From Aeoliella mucimassa (GTDB taxonomy: Bacteria; Planctomycetota; Planctomycetia; Pirellulales; Lacipirellulaceae), in the NCBI RefSeq assembly GCF_007748035.1, contig NZ_CP036278.1:3038001-3102000 (forward strand): a stretch of 64,000 bases of DNA, written 5' to 3'. Positions 32,115-63,678 of this stretch are shown here, one piece after another; positions within the stretch are counted from its first letter, which is position 1; the number at the start of each line of letters is the position of its first letter. The position numbers were made by a program, and so were the translations under genes. Under the pieces are notes generated by a model, which was given only the letters and a program-made list of their open reading frames with translations, ran no database searches and was not told the origin of the DNA.

Positions 32115-32462
32115 ATGAAACTCATCCTTGCCATTATTCAGCCGAGCAAACTGGAAGACGTAAAAGCCGAACTTTCTGAGGTGGAAGTAGTACGGCTTAC
32201 GATCATGGATGTGCAGGGATTCGGGCGGCAAAAAGGGCAAACGGAAGTCTATCGCGGCCACGAGATTTCGGTGAACTTGCTCCGCAAGGTGCAACTGCAA
32301 ATCGCCGTGAACGAAGACTTCGTGGAGCCAACCATCAACGCCATTATTCGTGGTGGGCGTACCGGCGAAACTGGCGAGATCGGTGATGGCAAGATTTTCG
32401 TTTTGCCGATGGATGATTGCATCCGAATTCGCACGGGGGAACGAGGCCCCGAGGCCATTTAG
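32115..32462 (+). CDS. Nitrogen regulatory PII protein lacking the uridylylation tyrosine
   Basis: 115-residue PII signal protein that senses 2-oxoglutarate/ATP/ADP and controls Amt and nitrogen enzymes. PII blocks are clear: MKLILAIIQPSKLEDV, GFGRQKGQTEVYRG, IRGGRTGETGEIGDGKIFVLP and IRIRTGERGPEAI. In the T-loop residue 46 is Tyr but residue 51, the uridylylated Tyr in enterobacteria, is Ile (RGHEIS). ATG at 32115 chosen from the family N-terminus. It stands alone; the only amt gene in the window is 23 kb away. Confidence 0.95.
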   Translation: MKLILAIIQPSKLEDVKAELSEVEVVRLTIMDVQGFGRQKGQTEVYRGHEISVNLLRKVQLQIAVNEDFVEPTINAIIRGGRTGETGEIGDGKIFVLPMDDCIRIRTGERGPEAI

Positions 32463-53494: not shown

Positions 53495-53540
53495 GTGTAG
53501 CGATCGCTCATGGACGAGGGGGAGATAAAAAGACACCCCA

Positions 53541-55573
53541 GCTTGGGCGGTTCAGGCGGTGAAACCCCCCAAGCCTTACGGGGCGTCCTTCTGGGAAGCT
53601 TCGTCGCAATCGCGGGACAAGTCGCGGGCGACTGGTTGGCGAGCAACGCCCAACCGTAATAAGCGATGAGAGTGATCGAGAGCGGCAACAATGGGAAAGT
53701 CCCCTTCGCGAGGCAGGCCGTTCGCTCGCGGAAAGGTCAGGCGGTAACCCTTTCCGCGAGCGACGAAGGCCAATGTTTGCCGTTGTGTAGGAGTGACTGT
53801 TGGCGTGAGTTGCACCAGCGATGGGAATCTCGGCGGTTGAGTATCTCGTAAACTGCAAGCGGTCGGCGAAATACTCCCAAACAGTGCGAAGCTGGGAGAA
53901 ACAGCCCCCGAACCCGGACAGGCCAGGCGGTTTACCTGTCCGGGTTCGGTGTGGGCCTGCTAGTGAGCGTTGATTCTCCACGGTATATAAAAGCCCATCA
54001 GCCCGGGCAGGCCAGGCGGTTTACCTGTCCGGGCTGATAAGGCCAGCTTGGTCTGGTCGACCACCTGTCGGTCGTTGAATTGTTTAAGGCGGGCCTTGGT
54101 CCGAACGAGCCAGGCGGTAAACTCGTTCGGACCTTGTAGGCCAGCTTGGCTGGGTGGCACAGCTCCGGATCAGGTGAGCCAGGCGGTTTACTCACCTGAT
54201 CCGATGGAGCCAGCTTGGTTTGTCTCACGCCCGCCGGTCGTTGATTCGTTTTAAAGCGGGCCTTGGTTCGAACGAGCCAGGCGGTAAACTCGTTCGAACC
54301 TTGTAGGCCAGCTTGGCTGGGTTAAGCCCGGCCCTGACTCGGACAGGCCAGGCGGTTTACCTGTCCGAGTCGTAGAGGCCAGCTTGGTTTGGTTAAGTTG
54401 CCTCTTCACTGTTCCGGCCGATTTCAGGCCTCAGATTCGGGCAGGCCAGGCGGTGTACCTGCCCGAATCGGTGGAGGCCAGCTTGGTTCACGTCGCTCCA
54501 TCCAGCTTGATTCGTCTAAGGCGGGCCTTGGTTCGAACGGGCCAGGCGGTTTACCCGTTCGAACCAATGAGGCCAGCTTGGTTTGGCTGTGGTCGCCAAA
54601 AGTTGTGTATCGAAGTTGCGAAGGCGGGCCTTGGTTCGGACGGGCCAGGCGGTTTACCCGTCCGAACCAATGAGGCCAGCTTGGTCTAGGTGACCACCCG
54701 AGGTCGTTGTGTCGTTGTCTTGTGTTAAGTCCGGCCCTGACTCGGACAGGCCAGGCGGTGTACCTGTCCGAGTCGTGTAGGCCAGCTTGGCTTGCTAAAG
54801 CCCGGCCTCAGTTCGAGTGAGCCAGGCGGTAAACTCACTCGAACTTGTGGAGGCCAGCTTGGTCTGGTCGACCACCTGTCGGTCGTTGATTCGTTTTAAG
54901 GCGGGCCTTGGTTCGAACGAGTCAGGCGGTAAACTCGTTCGAACCTTGTAGGCCAGCTTGGCTTGTTAAAGCCCGGCCTCAGTTCGAGTGAGCCAGGCGG
55001 TAAACTCACTCGAACTTGTGGAGGCCAGCTTGGTCTGGTTGACCGCCTGTCGGTCGTTGATTCGTTTTAAAGCGGGCCTTGGTCCGAACGAGCCAGGCGG
55101 TAAACTCGTTCGAACCTTGTAGGCCAGCTTGGCTTGGTTAAGCCCGGCCTCAGTTCGAGTGAGCCAGGCGGTAAACTCACTCGAACTTGTGGAGGCCAGC
55201 TTGGTCTGGTCGACCACCTGTCGGTCGTTGATTTGGTTTTAAGGCGGGCCTTGGTCCGAACGAGCCAGGCGGTAAACTCGTTCGAACCTTGTAGGCCAGC
55301 TTGGCTTGGTTAAGCCCGGCCTCAGTTCGAGTGAGCCAGGCGGTAAACTCACTCGAACTTGTGGAGGCCAGCTTGGTCTGGTCGACCGCCCGTTGGTCGT
55401 TGTTCGGTTTTAAGGCGGGCCTGACTCGGACAGGCCAGGCGGTTTACCTGTCCGAGTCATGAAGGCCAGCTTGGTTTGGTTCCGCCTGCGTCGCGTTTGT
55501 ATCTTGAAAGGCGGGCCTTGGTTCGGGTGGGCCAGGCGGTTTACCCACCCGAACCAGTGTGGCCAGCTTTGGA
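53541..55573. repeat. Array of 21 variable-stem hairpins with a conserved 12-nt loop
   Basis: Left arms begin at 53541, 53722, 53908, 53997, 54098, 54166, 54265, 54336, 54434, 54528, 54631, 54739, 54810, 54910, 54981, 55081, 55152, 55253, 55324, 55422 and 55519. Each has a 12-15 bp, mostly perfect stem and a 12-nt loop CCAGGCGGTTTA, CCAGGCGGTAAA or CCAGGCGGTGTA (the first two units deviate: CAGGCGGTGA and TCAGGCGGTAAC). At least eleven stem sequences occur, for example GACTCGGACAGG, GGTTCGAACGAG, AGTTCGAGTGAG and GGATCAGGTGAG; both arms change together. Most units also carry an outer GGCC before and GGCCAGCTT after the stem, and in units with an AAGC 5' of the first GGCC these could extend the pairing. 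Spacing (68-186 bp) is not a multiple of three and no frame is protein-like. Confidence 0.92.
54791..55375. repeat. Tandem ~171-bp two-hairpin units inside the array
   Basis: A unit holding one AGTTCGAGTGAG hairpin and one GGTYCGAACGAG hairpin starts at 54791, 54962, 55133 and 55305 (periods 171, 171 and 172 bp), the last copy being incomplete. The between-hairpin text (ACCACCTGTCGGTCGTTGAT and variants) is also repeated. This shows recent local duplication, in contrast to the diverged hairpins to the left. Confidence 0.88.
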
Positions 55574-55584
55574 GGAACTACAAT

Positions 55585-57021
55585 TTAGTGGCTGCCGTAG
55601 GCTTGCATGCCATGCTCACTGATATCGAGACCAGCTTGCTCTTCCTCAGCCGTGACTCGCAGGATGCCAGCCGCTTTGAGGATGGTGAACAAGATGAACA
55701 TGGTTACAAAGGACCAACCGCAGATCACTGCAGTGCTAAAGGCTTGAACACCAAGGCTGCCGTGGCCGAAGACACCGATGGCCAAGCAACCCCACATGCC
55801 GCAGAGACCGTGAACAGGCCAGGCACCGACAGGATCGTCGATCTTAAGCTTGTCGAGCATCATGATGCCGAGGATCACGAGGACACCAGCGATGCCACCA
55901 ACCAGCATGGCTTGCCAGTCGGTCATGCAGTCGCAGCAGGCGGTGATGCCGACCAGACCGCCGAGGATGCCGTTGAGGCCCATCGACAGGTCGGGCTTGC
56001 CGAACATTACCCAGCTCAGCAGGGTCGCTACCAAACCACCCGCACCAGCGGCCAGAGTAGTAGTCACTGCACAGTGCATGGTCATGTCGATATCGCCAGT
56101 GCCTTGGAAGGCCAGTTGGCTACCGGGGTTAAAGCCGTACCAACCGAACCACAGGATGAACACACCGAGGCCAGCCAGTGTGATGTTGTGACCAGGGACC
56201 GGAACCGATTTGCCATCGACAAAGCGTCCGATACGCGGGCCGAGCACCAAGGCACCAGCCAGACCAGCAAAGCCACCCACACCATGCACCACAGCCGATC
56301 CAGCGAAATCGGCAAAACCCATTTGGTCGAGCCAACCACCGCCCCACTTCCACATACCGCTTACGGGGTACACAAAAGCGGTCAAAATCGCACTGTAAAT
56401 CAGGTAAGCACCAACCTTCATGCGACCAGCTACAGCACCCGAAACAATCGTGGCTGCCGTCGCTGCAAAAACAGCTTGGAAGAACCAGTCGGTTTCAGGG
56501 CTGAATGTACGACCGGGATCCAGTTTGTAATCATTCAGACCAATGCCGCCGAAGGCTCCATACTTGTTGGCTTCCTTCACTTCAGCAATCTGCTCATCCG
56601 TCATATCAGCGAACTGATCTGTGAACTTCGCATAATTGAATGGGTACATTATCCCGAAACCAATTGTGAAGAACAGCAGAACGCCGATACAAATATCCAT
56701 CGAGTTCTTGAACAAGATGTTGATTGCATTCTTCGACGAGTTGAAACCGCATTCGACCATCGCGAAACCGGCTTGCATGAAGAACACCAGCACGGCAGCA
56801 ATAAACAACACGGCGTTGTCTAAAGCGTAACCAACTCCAAGGTCTTCTGCAGGAGCTTCATCTTCCGGGGCCGCGTCGTCGGCGGTAGTCTCGGCCGATT
56901 CGGCAGCAGGAGTCTCTGCATCACCTTCTTGCGCCCAGCTAATGCTGGGGGCAGCTACAAGAGCAAGCACGCTGGCGAGCATAAGCACGCCGGCAACTCG
57001 CTGAAAACTGAGCCAATTCAT
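55585..57021 (-). CDS. amt: Ammonium transporter (Amt family)
   Basis: 478-residue Amt/MEP channel. Signal peptide (about 1-28, ending SISWA), an acidic periplasmic segment (about 30-55), then eleven hydrophobic helices. Pore His residues are in SAVVHGVGGFAGLAGAL and WPVHGLCGMWGCLAIGVF; the helix GVFILWFGWYGFNPGS is typical. ATG at 57021 has AAAGGTG eight bases upstream; a longer frame upstream is not protein-like. A sigma-54 promoter lies about 175 bp before the start. The hairpin array begins 11 bp past its stop. No PII gene is adjacent. Confidence 0.96.
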   Translation of the reverse strand: MNWLSFQRVAGVLMLASVLALVAAPSISWAQEGDAETPAAESAETTADDAAPEDEAPAEDLGVGYALDNAVLFIAAVLVFFMQAGFAMVECGFNSSKNAINILFKNSMDICIGVLLFFTIGFGIMYPFNYAKFTDQFADMTDEQIAEVKEANKYGAFGGIGLNDYKLDPGRTFSPETDWFFQAVFAATAATIVSGAVAGRMKVGAYLIYSAILTAFVYPVSGMWKWGGGWLDQMGFADFAGSAVVHGVGGFAGLAGALVLGPRIGRFVDGKSVPVPGHNITLAGLGVFILWFGWYGFNPGSQLAFQGTGDIDMTMHCAVTTTLAAGAGGLVATLLSWVMFGKPDLSMGLNGILGGLVGITACCDCMTDWQAMLVGGIAGVLVILGIMMLDKLKIDDPVGAWPVHGLCGMWGCLAIGVFGHGSLGVQAFSTAVICGWSFVTMFILFTILKAAGILRVTAEEEQAGLDISEHGMQAYGSH

Positions 57022-57502
57022 CAATTCGCACCTTTGATAAGTCAGAAGGAAATCAAAGCTCGGCGGGCTGTCATTCACTGTTCCACCCACAGCCTGCTGA
57101 GCCGCTGTCCCCGTTGGACAGTCTTGGTCTCGAGCAACCTTGGAATCACGATCTCTCGCGCCGGCCTGCTGCTCGAAGCTTGATTTGCTAGCGATCCATC
57201 GGAAATGCAACGACCGTGCCAGTTGTTCGTGAGGCACCTGCCCTATGTGCTGTAAGTGCTTGCAGTAAAAGAAGTTATAAAATATCTAAAGTTTCTTTCG
57301 CTCCCTGCCGAGGCACGCCTGCCTGCGATCTGTGCACTGATTGCGGGCAGAGTGGGCCGAGATTTCAGGCAGGTGGATAACCGGTAGATTCCGGATATGC
57401 GGCGGAAGATAGACAGATGCCTAGAATCGCAGCATGCGAGCGCGAGAAGTGCGCAGTAAGGCATCTGTCGATGGCAAGATTGATTGCGCCAGCCAGAGTG
57501 GC
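57022..57502. other. 481-bp leader and promoter region of amt
   Basis: Between ftsY and amt on the minus strand. It contains the sigma-54 promoter (57206-57221) and a 12-bp hairpin with two G-U pairs (57319-57330 with 57339-57350) that may end the ftsY transcript. No clear NtrC-type dyad (TGCACC-N5-GGTGCA) was found upstream of the promoter. Confidence 0.55.
57206..57221 (-). promoter_or_regulatory. Sigma-54 (-24/-12) promoter of amt
   Basis: Reads TGGCACG-GTCG-TTGCA on the minus strand, an exact match to the RpoN consensus TGGCACG-N4-TTGCW. It predicts transcription starting near 57195, giving a leader of about 175 nt before amt, and nitrogen-limitation control through an NtrC-type activator. 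Confidence 0.85.
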
Positions 57503-60760: not shown

Positions 60761-61795
60761 GGCCTTGTTGACTAACTCCACTCGAACTGTGGAAGCCCGA
60801 GTTGGGTGAATTGATTGATGATTTTACAGCGCAAGCGGGCTTCCGTTTGTTGGTTTTCGAATACTCGGTTTTTGAGATGGCTCCCAAAGCTTTGTTTCAC
60901 TCGGTACATGGTCGTTTCCGCCAAGCTTCTACGATGATAGCCCACTTCCTCTTTCCAACTCCTACGCCCCTTGCGTCGAATCTGACGAATTGCCTCGTCC
61001 CGGGGCAAAGGCTCCTCCGCAGAGTTGCCATGTTGTTTGATCTTGGCGTTGTGCTGCGGCGGAATCACCGGCTCAATGCCTTCGGATTCCAGCCCTTCAT
61101 AAACCTTCCACTTGTCGTAACTACCGTCGCCGTGAAACTTTTTTACGGGCTGCTCCACCTGCTCCAGCATTTCGGGAACCGCATCGGCATCGTGGCAACT
61201 GTTCTCGGTCAAAATCTCCGCCACAATCTCGCGGGTGTCAGGATTCACCGACAAATGCAGCTTCCGCCATGTCCGCCGCTTCGACTTGCCATGCGTCCGC
61301 ATCTTCCATTCGCCCTCGCCAAACACTTTCATGCCGGTGCTATCCACCACGATATCGATGTCGCCCCTCTTGTTAGCGATATCGAGCGAAACATTCAGCT
61401 TGCTGGCTCGCTTGGCGAGCGAAGAATAATTGGGAATCGCTGCCTCGACGCCCAACATCGCCACCAGCGAGCGGCCGAATCCCTCAGTCTGCCGATAGGG
61501 AAGTTTCAGCAGTTCGCGAATCGTCAGCAAGCACTCGATCGCCGTATCGCTGAAGACAAAAGGGCGACCGACTTTTGTCTGGTCGTTAGGATGTTCCCAG
61601 TTCTCCAACGCCTCGTCGCTAAACCAAATAGTGATGTTTCCACGCTCGATGAGCGACTTGTTATACTCCTTCCAGTTCGTGACTTTGTAGGTTCGTTTTT
61701 CTTTCGTAGCCATGTTCGATCTCCGTAAAAAAGGTACGTGGTTCCATTCCACGTTAGTTTTTACGGAGGTTTGTGACTAATTGTTCAACAAGGCC
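60761..61795 (-). mobile_element. IS5 family (IS903 group) insertion sequence, copy 1
   Basis: 1035 bp, terminal inverted repeats beginning GGCCTTGTTGA (close to the IS903 end GGCTTTGTTGA), flanked by a 9-bp target duplication AACCTTAAT at 60752-60760 and 61796-61804. Encodes one transposase on the minus strand. Identical in length and encoded protein to the copy at 62644-63678 and in inverted orientation to it. Confidence 0.95.
60772..61713 (-). CDS. IS5/IS903-type DDE transposase, copy 1
   Basis: 313 residues from the ATG at 61713 (GGAG seven bases upstream). DDE residues are probably Asp in IDIVVDSTGMKVFG, Asp in FHGDGSYDKW and Glu in RRSLAETTMYRVK, the last matching the Y-x2-R-x6-K-type block of IS5. 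The frame is open 13 codons further upstream but that part overlaps the inverted repeat region. Intact, so probably active. Confidence 0.95.
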   Translation of the reverse strand: MATKEKRTYKVTNWKEYNKSLIERGNITIWFSDEALENWEHPNDQTKVGRPFVFSDTAIECLLTIRELLKLPYRQTEGFGRSLVAMLGVEAAIPNYSSLAKRASKLNVSLDIANKRGDIDIVVDSTGMKVFGEGEWKMRTHGKSKRRTWRKLHLSVNPDTREIVAEILTENSCHDADAVPEMLEQVEQPVKKFHGDGSYDKWKVYEGLESEGIEPVIPPQHNAKIKQHGNSAEEPLPRDEAIRQIRRKGRRSWKEEVGYHRRSLAETTMYRVKQSFGSHLKNRVFENQQTEARLRCKIINQFTQLGLPQFEWS

Positions 61796-62643: not shown

Positions 62644-63678
62644 GGCCTTGTTGAACAATTAGTCACAAACCTCCGTAAAAACTAACGTGGAATGGAACCA
62701 CGTACCTTTTTTACGGAGATCGAACATGGCTACGAAAGAAAAACGAACCTACAAAGTCACGAACTGGAAGGAGTATAACAAGTCGCTCATCGAGCGTGGA
62801 AACATCACTATTTGGTTTAGCGACGAGGCGTTGGAGAACTGGGAACATCCTAACGACCAGACAAAAGTCGGTCGCCCTTTTGTCTTCAGCGATACGGCGA
62901 TCGAGTGCTTGCTGACGATTCGCGAACTGCTGAAACTTCCCTATCGGCAGACTGAGGGATTCGGCCGCTCGCTGGTGGCGATGTTGGGCGTCGAGGCAGC
63001 GATTCCCAATTATTCTTCGCTCGCCAAGCGAGCCAGCAAGCTGAATGTTTCGCTCGATATCGCTAACAAGAGGGGCGACATCGATATCGTGGTGGATAGC
63101 ACCGGCATGAAAGTGTTTGGCGAGGGCGAATGGAAGATGCGGACGCATGGCAAGTCGAAGCGGCGGACATGGCGGAAGCTGCATTTGTCGGTGAATCCTG
63201 ACACCCGCGAGATTGTGGCGGAGATTTTGACCGAGAACAGTTGCCACGATGCCGATGCGGTTCCCGAAATGCTGGAGCAGGTGGAGCAGCCCGTAAAAAA
63301 GTTTCACGGCGACGGTAGTTACGACAAGTGGAAGGTTTATGAAGGGCTGGAATCCGAAGGCATTGAGCCGGTGATTCCGCCGCAGCACAACGCCAAGATC
63401 AAACAACATGGCAACTCTGCGGAGGAGCCTTTGCCCCGGGACGAGGCAATTCGTCAGATTCGACGCAAGGGGCGTAGGAGTTGGAAAGAGGAAGTGGGCT
63501 ATCATCGTAGAAGCTTGGCGGAAACGACCATGTACCGAGTGAAACAAAGCTTTGGGAGCCATCTCAAAAACCGAGTATTCGAAAACCAACAAACGGAAGC
63601 CCGCTTGCGCTGTAAAATCATCAATCAATTCACCCAACTCGGGCTTCCACAGTTCGAGTGGAGTTAGTCAACAAGGCC
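62644..63678 (+). mobile_element. IS5 family (IS903 group) insertion sequence, copy 2
   Basis: 1035 bp, same inverted ends as copy 1, flanked by a 9-bp target duplication ATGGCTCAC at 62635-62643 and 63679-63687. Inserted inside the beta-repeat gene in the same direction as that gene. Confidence 0.96.
62726..63667 (+). CDS. IS5/IS903-type DDE transposase, copy 2
   Basis: 313 residues, identical in sequence to copy 1, with the same DDE motifs and ribosome site (GGAG seven bases before ATG). The identity implies a recent copying event. Confidence 0.95.
   Translation: MATKEKRTYKVTNWKEYNKSLIERGNITIWFSDEALENWEHPNDQTKVGRPFVFSDTAIECLLTIRELLKLPYRQTEGFGRSLVAMLGVEAAIPNYSSLAKRASKLNVSLDIANKRGDIDIVVDSTGMKVFGEGEWKMRTHGKSKRRTWRKLHLSVNPDTREIVAEILTENSCHDADAVPEMLEQVEQPVKKFHGDGSYDKWKVYEGLESEGIEPVIPPQHNAKIKQHGNSAEEPLPRDEAIRQIRRKGRRSWKEEVGYHRRSLAETTMYRVKQSFGSHLKNRVFENQQTEARLRCKIINQFTQLGLPQFEWS

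Follow-up and report, generated by a model that had tools for sequence, protein, structure and literature searches.

An array of 21 CCGCCU-loop hairpins behind amt in Aeoliella mucimassa, a local expansion of a putative nitrogen-starvation RNA family of the Pirellulales

The amt locus and its hairpin array

The window analyzed here is a 64,000-nucleotide stretch of the Aeoliella mucimassa genome, positions 3038001-3102000 of a single contig of 6,608,792 bp (~6.6 Mb). It encodes an ammonium transporter, amt, on the minus strand (55585..57021; Pfam PF00909, E 6e-118), with a putative start at 57021 in an open frame that extends to 57237. The ~2 kb between the end of amt (55585) and the end of a plus-strand reading frame (53494) is filled by an array of 21 hairpins (53541..55573), which lies in the 3' untranslated region of amt and has the minus strand as its RNA sense. 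An initial annotation had reported 21 stem-loops with a near-constant loop here, and all were recovered at that place. A PII gene (glnK-type) is encoded on the plus strand at 32115..32462, displaced ~21 kb from the array. Its identity to the PII that adjoins the array is 97% in one genome of the genus and 95% in another; for the other three PII genes the corresponding values are 32-55%.

Each unit consists of a 12-nt near-constant loop and a 12-bp stem. Watson-Crick pairing of the core is 12/12 in 17 units, 11/12 in three and 10/12 in unit 1. The window contains 20 copies of CAGGCGGTNNAC (0.13 expected), of which 19 belong to array loops and the last matches the minus strand at 55038. We counted 13 distinct 5' arms among the 21 units, in line with the earlier estimate of at least eleven different stems.

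Unit 1 (53516..53608, minus strand) differs in type from the other units. It is of type I, the form that adjoins glnK in relatives (71.4 bits with the second covariance model described below), and runs from CCAGAAGGACGCCCC through a CCGCCU-containing loop to GGGGUGUCUUUUU, ending in CUUUUU as a terminator-like end of the array. Type I is the ancestral form of the array element. The hairpin cores of the remaining units, also on the minus strand, are at 53725..53760 (unit 2), 53911..53946 (unit 3), 54000..54035 (unit 4, followed by CUUUUAUAU), 54098..54133 (unit 5), 54167..54202 (unit 6), 54265..54300 (unit 7), 54336..54371 (unit 8), 54434..54469 (unit 9), 54530..54565 (unit 10), 54633..54668 (unit 11), 54739..54774 (unit 12), 54810..54845 (unit 13), 54910..54945 (unit 14), 54981..55016 (unit 15), 55081..55116 (unit 16), 55152..55187 (unit 17), 55253..55288 (unit 18), 55324..55359 (unit 19), 55423..55458 (unit 20) and 55520..55555 (unit 21, the closest to the amt stop codon). 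Units 16 and 18 each have one G.U pair on the RNA strand. Six or more U within the next 10 nt, our criterion for a U-rich stretch, are found after units 1 and 4 only.

The right half of the array contains a recent tandem duplication of 171 bp (54776..55422, minus strand; 3.8 copies, 95% matches), as the initial annotation had noted. Most stems are extended by the outer GGCC / GGCC-A-GCTT frame that it also described, and this frame is less strict than the inner helix (77.5% paired).

Two further features of the genome were observed. A second amt (855378-856672) was matched as two overlapping pieces and is possibly frameshifted; it adjoins another PII gene (856829), and the covariance model of the window units (R1, below) has no match there. 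Near amt and ftsY there is a possible inverted IS pair (60772-61752, minus strand, and 62687-63667, plus strand, each 326 aa), and the reading frame at 62687-63667 encodes a DDE_Tnp_1 transposase.

Covariation and the strand of the element

The initial annotation held that the two arms change together and named a failure to co-vary on realignment, beyond a few duplicated stems, as one result that would overturn it. We evaluated the array with the inner and outer helices as the named structure (20 distinct rows, 500 shuffles). In the inner helix, 98.3% of cells are paired and two-sided change occurs in 12/12 pairs, so the arms do co-vary. Across the whole structure, 69 cells are changed on both sides, compared to 20.8 in shuffles (reached by 0/500) and 2 to 15 in slid controls, and the covariation score is 0.502, compared to 0.230 in shuffles (reached by 0/500). 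The number of further pair types in the array does not exceed that of shuffles (27 vs 26.3; 222/500 reach the value). Minus-strand folds of ten array units have z values of -4.4 to -6.8. With stems of 13 sequences around a near-constant loop, what is kept is the structure plus the loop, as first proposed. In an alignment of 31 type-I elements the inner helix shows two-sided changes in 10/12 pairs and the outer helix in 0/7.

To assign the strand, we tallied stem mismatches across 143 distinct elements from related genomes. Read on the amt-sense strand, these comprise 146 G.U, 16 A.C and 51 others, with pairing maximized for Watson-Crick pairs only; as background to this count, such a stem is found at 193/909 CCGCCT sites and at 14/753 in shuffled sequence. 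Mismatches in the window's own array (2 G.U, 1 A.C, 4 others) are too few to separate the strands. Judged from this substitution pattern, the element is an RNA read on the amt strand, because G.U far exceeds A.C on one strand and a DNA palindrome would have no reason for a strand preference. The strand first displayed is thus the antisense, and with the minus strand as the RNA strand of the array, the biological loop is UNNACCGCCUGR.

Distribution of the family

We searched with two covariance models, one built from the 21 window units (R1) and one from 31 elements of the ancestral type, taken in minus-strand sense (R2). In its own genome R1 finds the 21 units at one locus, the next matches having E values of 3.8 to 7.0. 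Because the family occupies one locus in the genome, a DNA parasite or REP was rejected, as was a REP/BIME with RAYT (21 R1 matches at one locus, no scattered copies). Of 59 genomes (its own and relatives), 38 have R1 matches with E of at most 0.1. Loci of several units are present in many genomes of its own family, the Lacipirellulaceae, and other families give one or two matches.

The initial annotation had proposed a covariance-model search of Pirellulales genomes. R2 matches 196/296 genomes of the order and 146/205 good genomes; no match was found in 100/296 and 59/205, respectively. In a draw across the phylum 12/392 genomes matched, 9 of the 12 within Pirellulales, and in a draw across the class 58/248 matched, 56 of the 58 within Pirellulales. 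None of the five matches outside the order adjoins amt or PII genes; two are terminator-like hairpins without CCGCCU, and one (L323) has CCGCCU. In families other than Lacipirellulaceae R2 finds between one and six dispersed copies in each genome. Arrays occur in Lacipirellulaceae, and the loci examined from other families have single units. Thus, by sequence comparison, the array looks like an amplified local expansion of a Pirellulales RNA family that is single-unit elsewhere.

Gene context in relatives

Loci were chosen from match lists, not at random: 40 from the R1 search of 59 genomes, 40 from the R2 search of the order, 20 from another match list and 20 lower-scoring ones from the R2 class draw. 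Two weak matches in genome G003 were omitted, and two R1 matches inside long reading frames (L091, L093) were dropped before the count of 99 loci, which includes the window and a few duplicate contigs of one genome.

The element follows amt, precedes a PII gene or does both at 90/99 loci. The order is amt, element, PII at 28 loci; element, PII without amt at 31; and amt, element without PII in the available DNA at 29 (5 of these incomplete). One locus (L283) has amt, element and a second element, and another (L278; G497:C422) has amt, element and PII plus an incomplete element-PII unit, the order in one stretch being element, PII, sigma-54-like site, amt, element, PII. Nine loci have neither gene; four of these are at contig ends and six have a sigma-54-like site. 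In many loci the element closely follows the amt stop codon. The 20 lower-scoring loci comprise 9 with amt, element and PII, 3 with element and PII, 1 with amt and element, 1 with the element upstream of amt, 4 with only a site (one at a contig end) and 2 with nothing (L331 and L342, which lack both amt/PII context and a sigma-54-like site).

In family f7, unlinked copies are on separate contigs, each with an amt paralogue (element 3') or glnK (element 5'), and the identity of these amt paralogues to the window's amt falls as low as 28%. We also observed an amt-element-PII unit present twice, 7.1 kb apart, with identical elements (L277; G537:C12), and an element ~190 nt upstream of amt, behind a sigma-54-like site (L339; G450:C49).

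Candidate stand-alone RNAs were identified at five loci at which no amt or PII gene is present. At L285 and L290 a CNNM/CBS gene is followed by a sigma-54-like site, ~0.4 kb of DNA, the element and a convergent phosphofructokinase gene; L275 has a CNNM/CBS gene, a site, ~0.3 kb, the element and a convergent SDR gene. These three share a covarying inner hairpin. At L326 and L327 a divergent leuA-like gene is followed by a site, ~165 nt, the element and a convergent PNPOx gene. Weaker stand-alone cases are L080, L090, L280, L333 and L336, the last with an RmlD-family gene close downstream in the same direction.

Anatomy of the element and its loop

The ancestral form is a single hairpin shaped like a terminator, CCAGAAGGAU-GCCCC-stem-loop-stem-GGGGC, and a U-run is frequently present. 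In RNA sense, type I has CCAGAAGGAUGCCCC and, after a short linker, GGCUUGGGURGG; next come a loop with UCCGCCUAR at its end, the complementary arm, GGGGYRU and, in many cases, the U-run. By the criterion used for the array, the sequence after 30/54 type-I elements is U-rich. Several folds show base pairing between the 5' flank AGAAGGAU and the U-run, and several extra (second-type) units in other genera of family f1 have a U-run of their own.

The loop takes the form UNNACCGCCUGR or NNNUCCGCCUAR. CCGCCU is present in 31/31 elements of the type-I alignment, in 153/162 of a wider set, in the best element of 90/99 loci and in 18/20 lower-scoring elements. It is absent in 9/162: three f7 loci have CCGCAA or CCGCCA in the loop, and the other six are in the locus set that includes L277 and L278. 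In 24/81 elements a further small hairpin, whose loop contains GCC, lies directly 5' (2% in shuffles). In one group CCGCCU is located in this small upstream hairpin (UGGCU-UCCGCCU-AGCCA) and not in the main loop. The loop motif seems more strictly kept than its carrier hairpin, because CCGCCU is retained when moved.

Pairing of the loop with the glnK start region was considered and rejected, as its complement AGGCGG is present in just 3/34 such regions (upstream stretches). We also rejected glnA as a co-member of the family or target, since no motif is regular in 14 glnA loci: AGGCGG is upstream in three, CCGCCU is far upstream in four, and the one sigma-54-like match is inside the frame (several start codons are uncertain). 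By eye, the glnK of many Lacipirellulaceae loci has a pyrimidine-rich stretch before the start and no clear Shine-Dalgarno sequence.

Sigma-54-like sites

We define a sigma-54-like site as a consensus match to TGGCAC-N5-TTGC at 9/10 positions or more, with GG and GC fixed; shuffled DNA has 0.03 such sites per kb. A perfect site, TGGCACGGTCGTTGCA, lies upstream of the window's amt (57206..57221, minus strand). Sites are upstream of 38/39 amt genes with readable upstream DNA (two are duplicate contigs), of which 30 score 10/10; the sole miss (L167) scores 8. For elements with PII only, a site scoring at least 9 is upstream of the element in 28/31, the misses being two incomplete loci and L166, which scores 8. 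Among 25 loci with both amt and PII, a score of 9 or more is reached in the 1 kb before PII at two: L182, at positions inside amt, and L185, which has a 9-of-10 site between element and PII. A small RNA is expected to have a 3'-UTR position or its own promoter; here we find the position, and consensus promoter matches.

In three glnK leaders (L086, L087, L089) inspected by eye, the DNA from the sigma-54-like site to the element includes a further terminator-like hairpin, with a T-run, that may be a second small RNA. A shorter hairpin immediately after the site is common to L088 and L178.

Possible role and alternatives

Because the elements are at amt and glnK genes, usually behind a putative sigma-54 promoter, they are probably nitrogen-starvation regulatory RNAs. 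Whether the element is more specifically the 3' terminator-shaped module of a family of nitrogen-starvation small RNAs with a CCGCCU loop, amplified here to 21, we regard as evenly balanced. We predict that under nitrogen limitation the sigma-54 promoter (a consensus match) drives amt, presumably via NtrC-type activation. Transcription would continue into the amt 3' UTR, and the RNA would fold into strong CCGCCU-loop hairpins, a structure indicated by covariation. A small RNA may be released from the amt 3' UTR or the glnK leader, or be made alone, and could act in trans via its loop, by pairing or by titration of an RNA-binding protein. In Aeoliella, tandem duplication would have placed 21 loops on one transcript, and this sharing of a transcript suggests a multivalent or dose-dependent action.

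Several results count against a small RNA. No target was found in glnK or glnA start regions, a U-rich end follows only 30/54 type-I elements and 2/21 window units, a third of the genomes of the order have no match, 9/162 elements lack CCGCCU, and both the context and the site are missing at L331 and L342.

A role in cis also fits, given the 28/99 loci with the element between amt and PII. The element could be a regulated terminator or attenuator, with a loop-bound factor setting read-through from amt or a leader into glnK and tandem units as serial terminators. This is possible but doubtful. The site is upstream of the element in PII-only loci that have one, U-rich stretches follow 30/54 type-I elements, several extra units of other f1 genera have their own U-run, and in several folds the U-run is paired to the 5' flank AGAAGGAU. 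However, the 29 amt loci without PII (5 incomplete) and the stand-alone units have no PII to regulate, a plain terminator has no need of a conserved loop, and the 9-of-10 site between element and PII at L185 would bypass the element. In the window, PII is 21 kb away, yet 21 units, 19 without a U-rich stretch, remain behind amt, and this speaks for a function of the array apart from glnK read-through. A cis attenuator covers only the amt-glnK and glnK settings; we prefer a trans-acting RNA because it covers the amt 3', glnK-leader and stand-alone settings.

It is improbable that the hairpins are mRNA-stability elements that block 3' exonucleases at the end of amt, with the loop as a protein handle: the folds are very stable and in many loci close behind the amt stop codon, but the copies in glnK leaders and the stand-alone units would be unexplained. 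A DNA-level element, be it a REP-like parasite or a cruciform or single strand recognized by a transposase or recombinase, with its arms matched by template-switch correction, would account for near-perfect palindromes, tandem growth and the very few one-sided changes within the window array, but is very unlikely given the wobble asymmetry by strand in relatives (146:16), the single locus in the genome and the tie to amt/PII and sigma-54-like sites. Of the three options in the initial annotation, the RNA element read through its loop is thus favored by the wobble asymmetry in relatives, its place in amt/PII transcripts and the sigma-54-like sites, and the transposase or recombinase substrate and the REP-like parasite are disfavored by the single locus and the association with amt/PII across the order.

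The trans-acting small RNA has a more speculative extension, which we consider rather unlikely as it stands: a CCGCCU-loop RNA regulon, in which a loop-reading partner in Pirellulales, either a protein or an RNA, is controlled by the starvation hairpins and the array is a multivalent sponge or decoy on amt mRNA. If the small-RNA reading is correct, this RNA would be found across the order in one constant physiological context, namely ammonium uptake and PII under sigma-54 promoters. The conserved loop could be used as bait, natural copy numbers of 1 to 21 would allow work on dose, and nitrogen riboregulation in Pirellulales would become directly testable.

Comparison with known systems

The array lacks the constant repeat and unique spacers of a CRISPR: its stems vary, its loop is near constant and much of the DNA between units is repeated, in agreement with the initial annotation. 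Rfam has no gathering match in the window, the glnA RNA included. The units are not tRNAs, as the initial annotation had also stated. Ten loci of relatives gave three Rfam matches with E no higher than 1. All three are in L046: one is a tRNA, another a sub-threshold Plastid-ycf2 match overlying that tRNA, and the third a sub-threshold mir-766 match (27.7 of 110 bits) on the antisense strand of the element. A resemblance to the T-box was dropped, as there was no Rfam match. Searches of the open-access literature, PMC2864571 and PMC12559287 among it, turned up no amt/glnK RNA for Planctomycetes.

ANTAR target RNAs consist of two paired hexanucleotide-loop hairpins with conserved loops. They are described as read by a protein for antitermination (PMC3369931). 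The Pirellulales element differs from these paired hexaloops in having 12-nt loops, single or arrayed, and two hexanucleotide-loop hairpins were not found.

The glnA RNA lies 5' of its genes. It is presented as a structured RNA that accompanies genes for PII, glutamine synthetase and ammonium transporters, in some cases in tandem, and is tied to cyanobacterial nitrogen regulation (PMC2864571; Weinberg et al., 2010). As described there, it resembles our family in gene setting and tandem copies and differs in being cyanobacterial and in having no Rfam match here. The same source lists the Rhodopirellula-1 motif, a candidate structured RNA of Planctomycetes and Proteobacteria with no Rfam number (PMC2864571); its listed taxa differ from those of the present family, found only in Pirellulales, but the two may be the same RNA.

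The array may also be compared with RNAs that present a motif several times. RsmZ-type hairpin RNAs, which titrate CsrA/RsmA, have many hairpins with one motif (GGA in the loops) on one RNA. The array likewise shows one motif on many hairpins of one RNA, but the motif is CCGCCU in a 12-nt loop, unlike the GGA loop of the titrating RNAs; GGA is present in the type-I 5' tail, CCAGAAGGA. The CcsR1-4 sRNAs form a tandem set with a common C-rich loop motif. Several of these stress-induced sRNAs of Rhodobacter sphaeroides are processed from one 3' UTR, that of ccaF1 (PMC8625941). By their published description they differ from the array in taxon, gene and stress (oxidative), and would resemble it in that several RNAs come from one 3' UTR.
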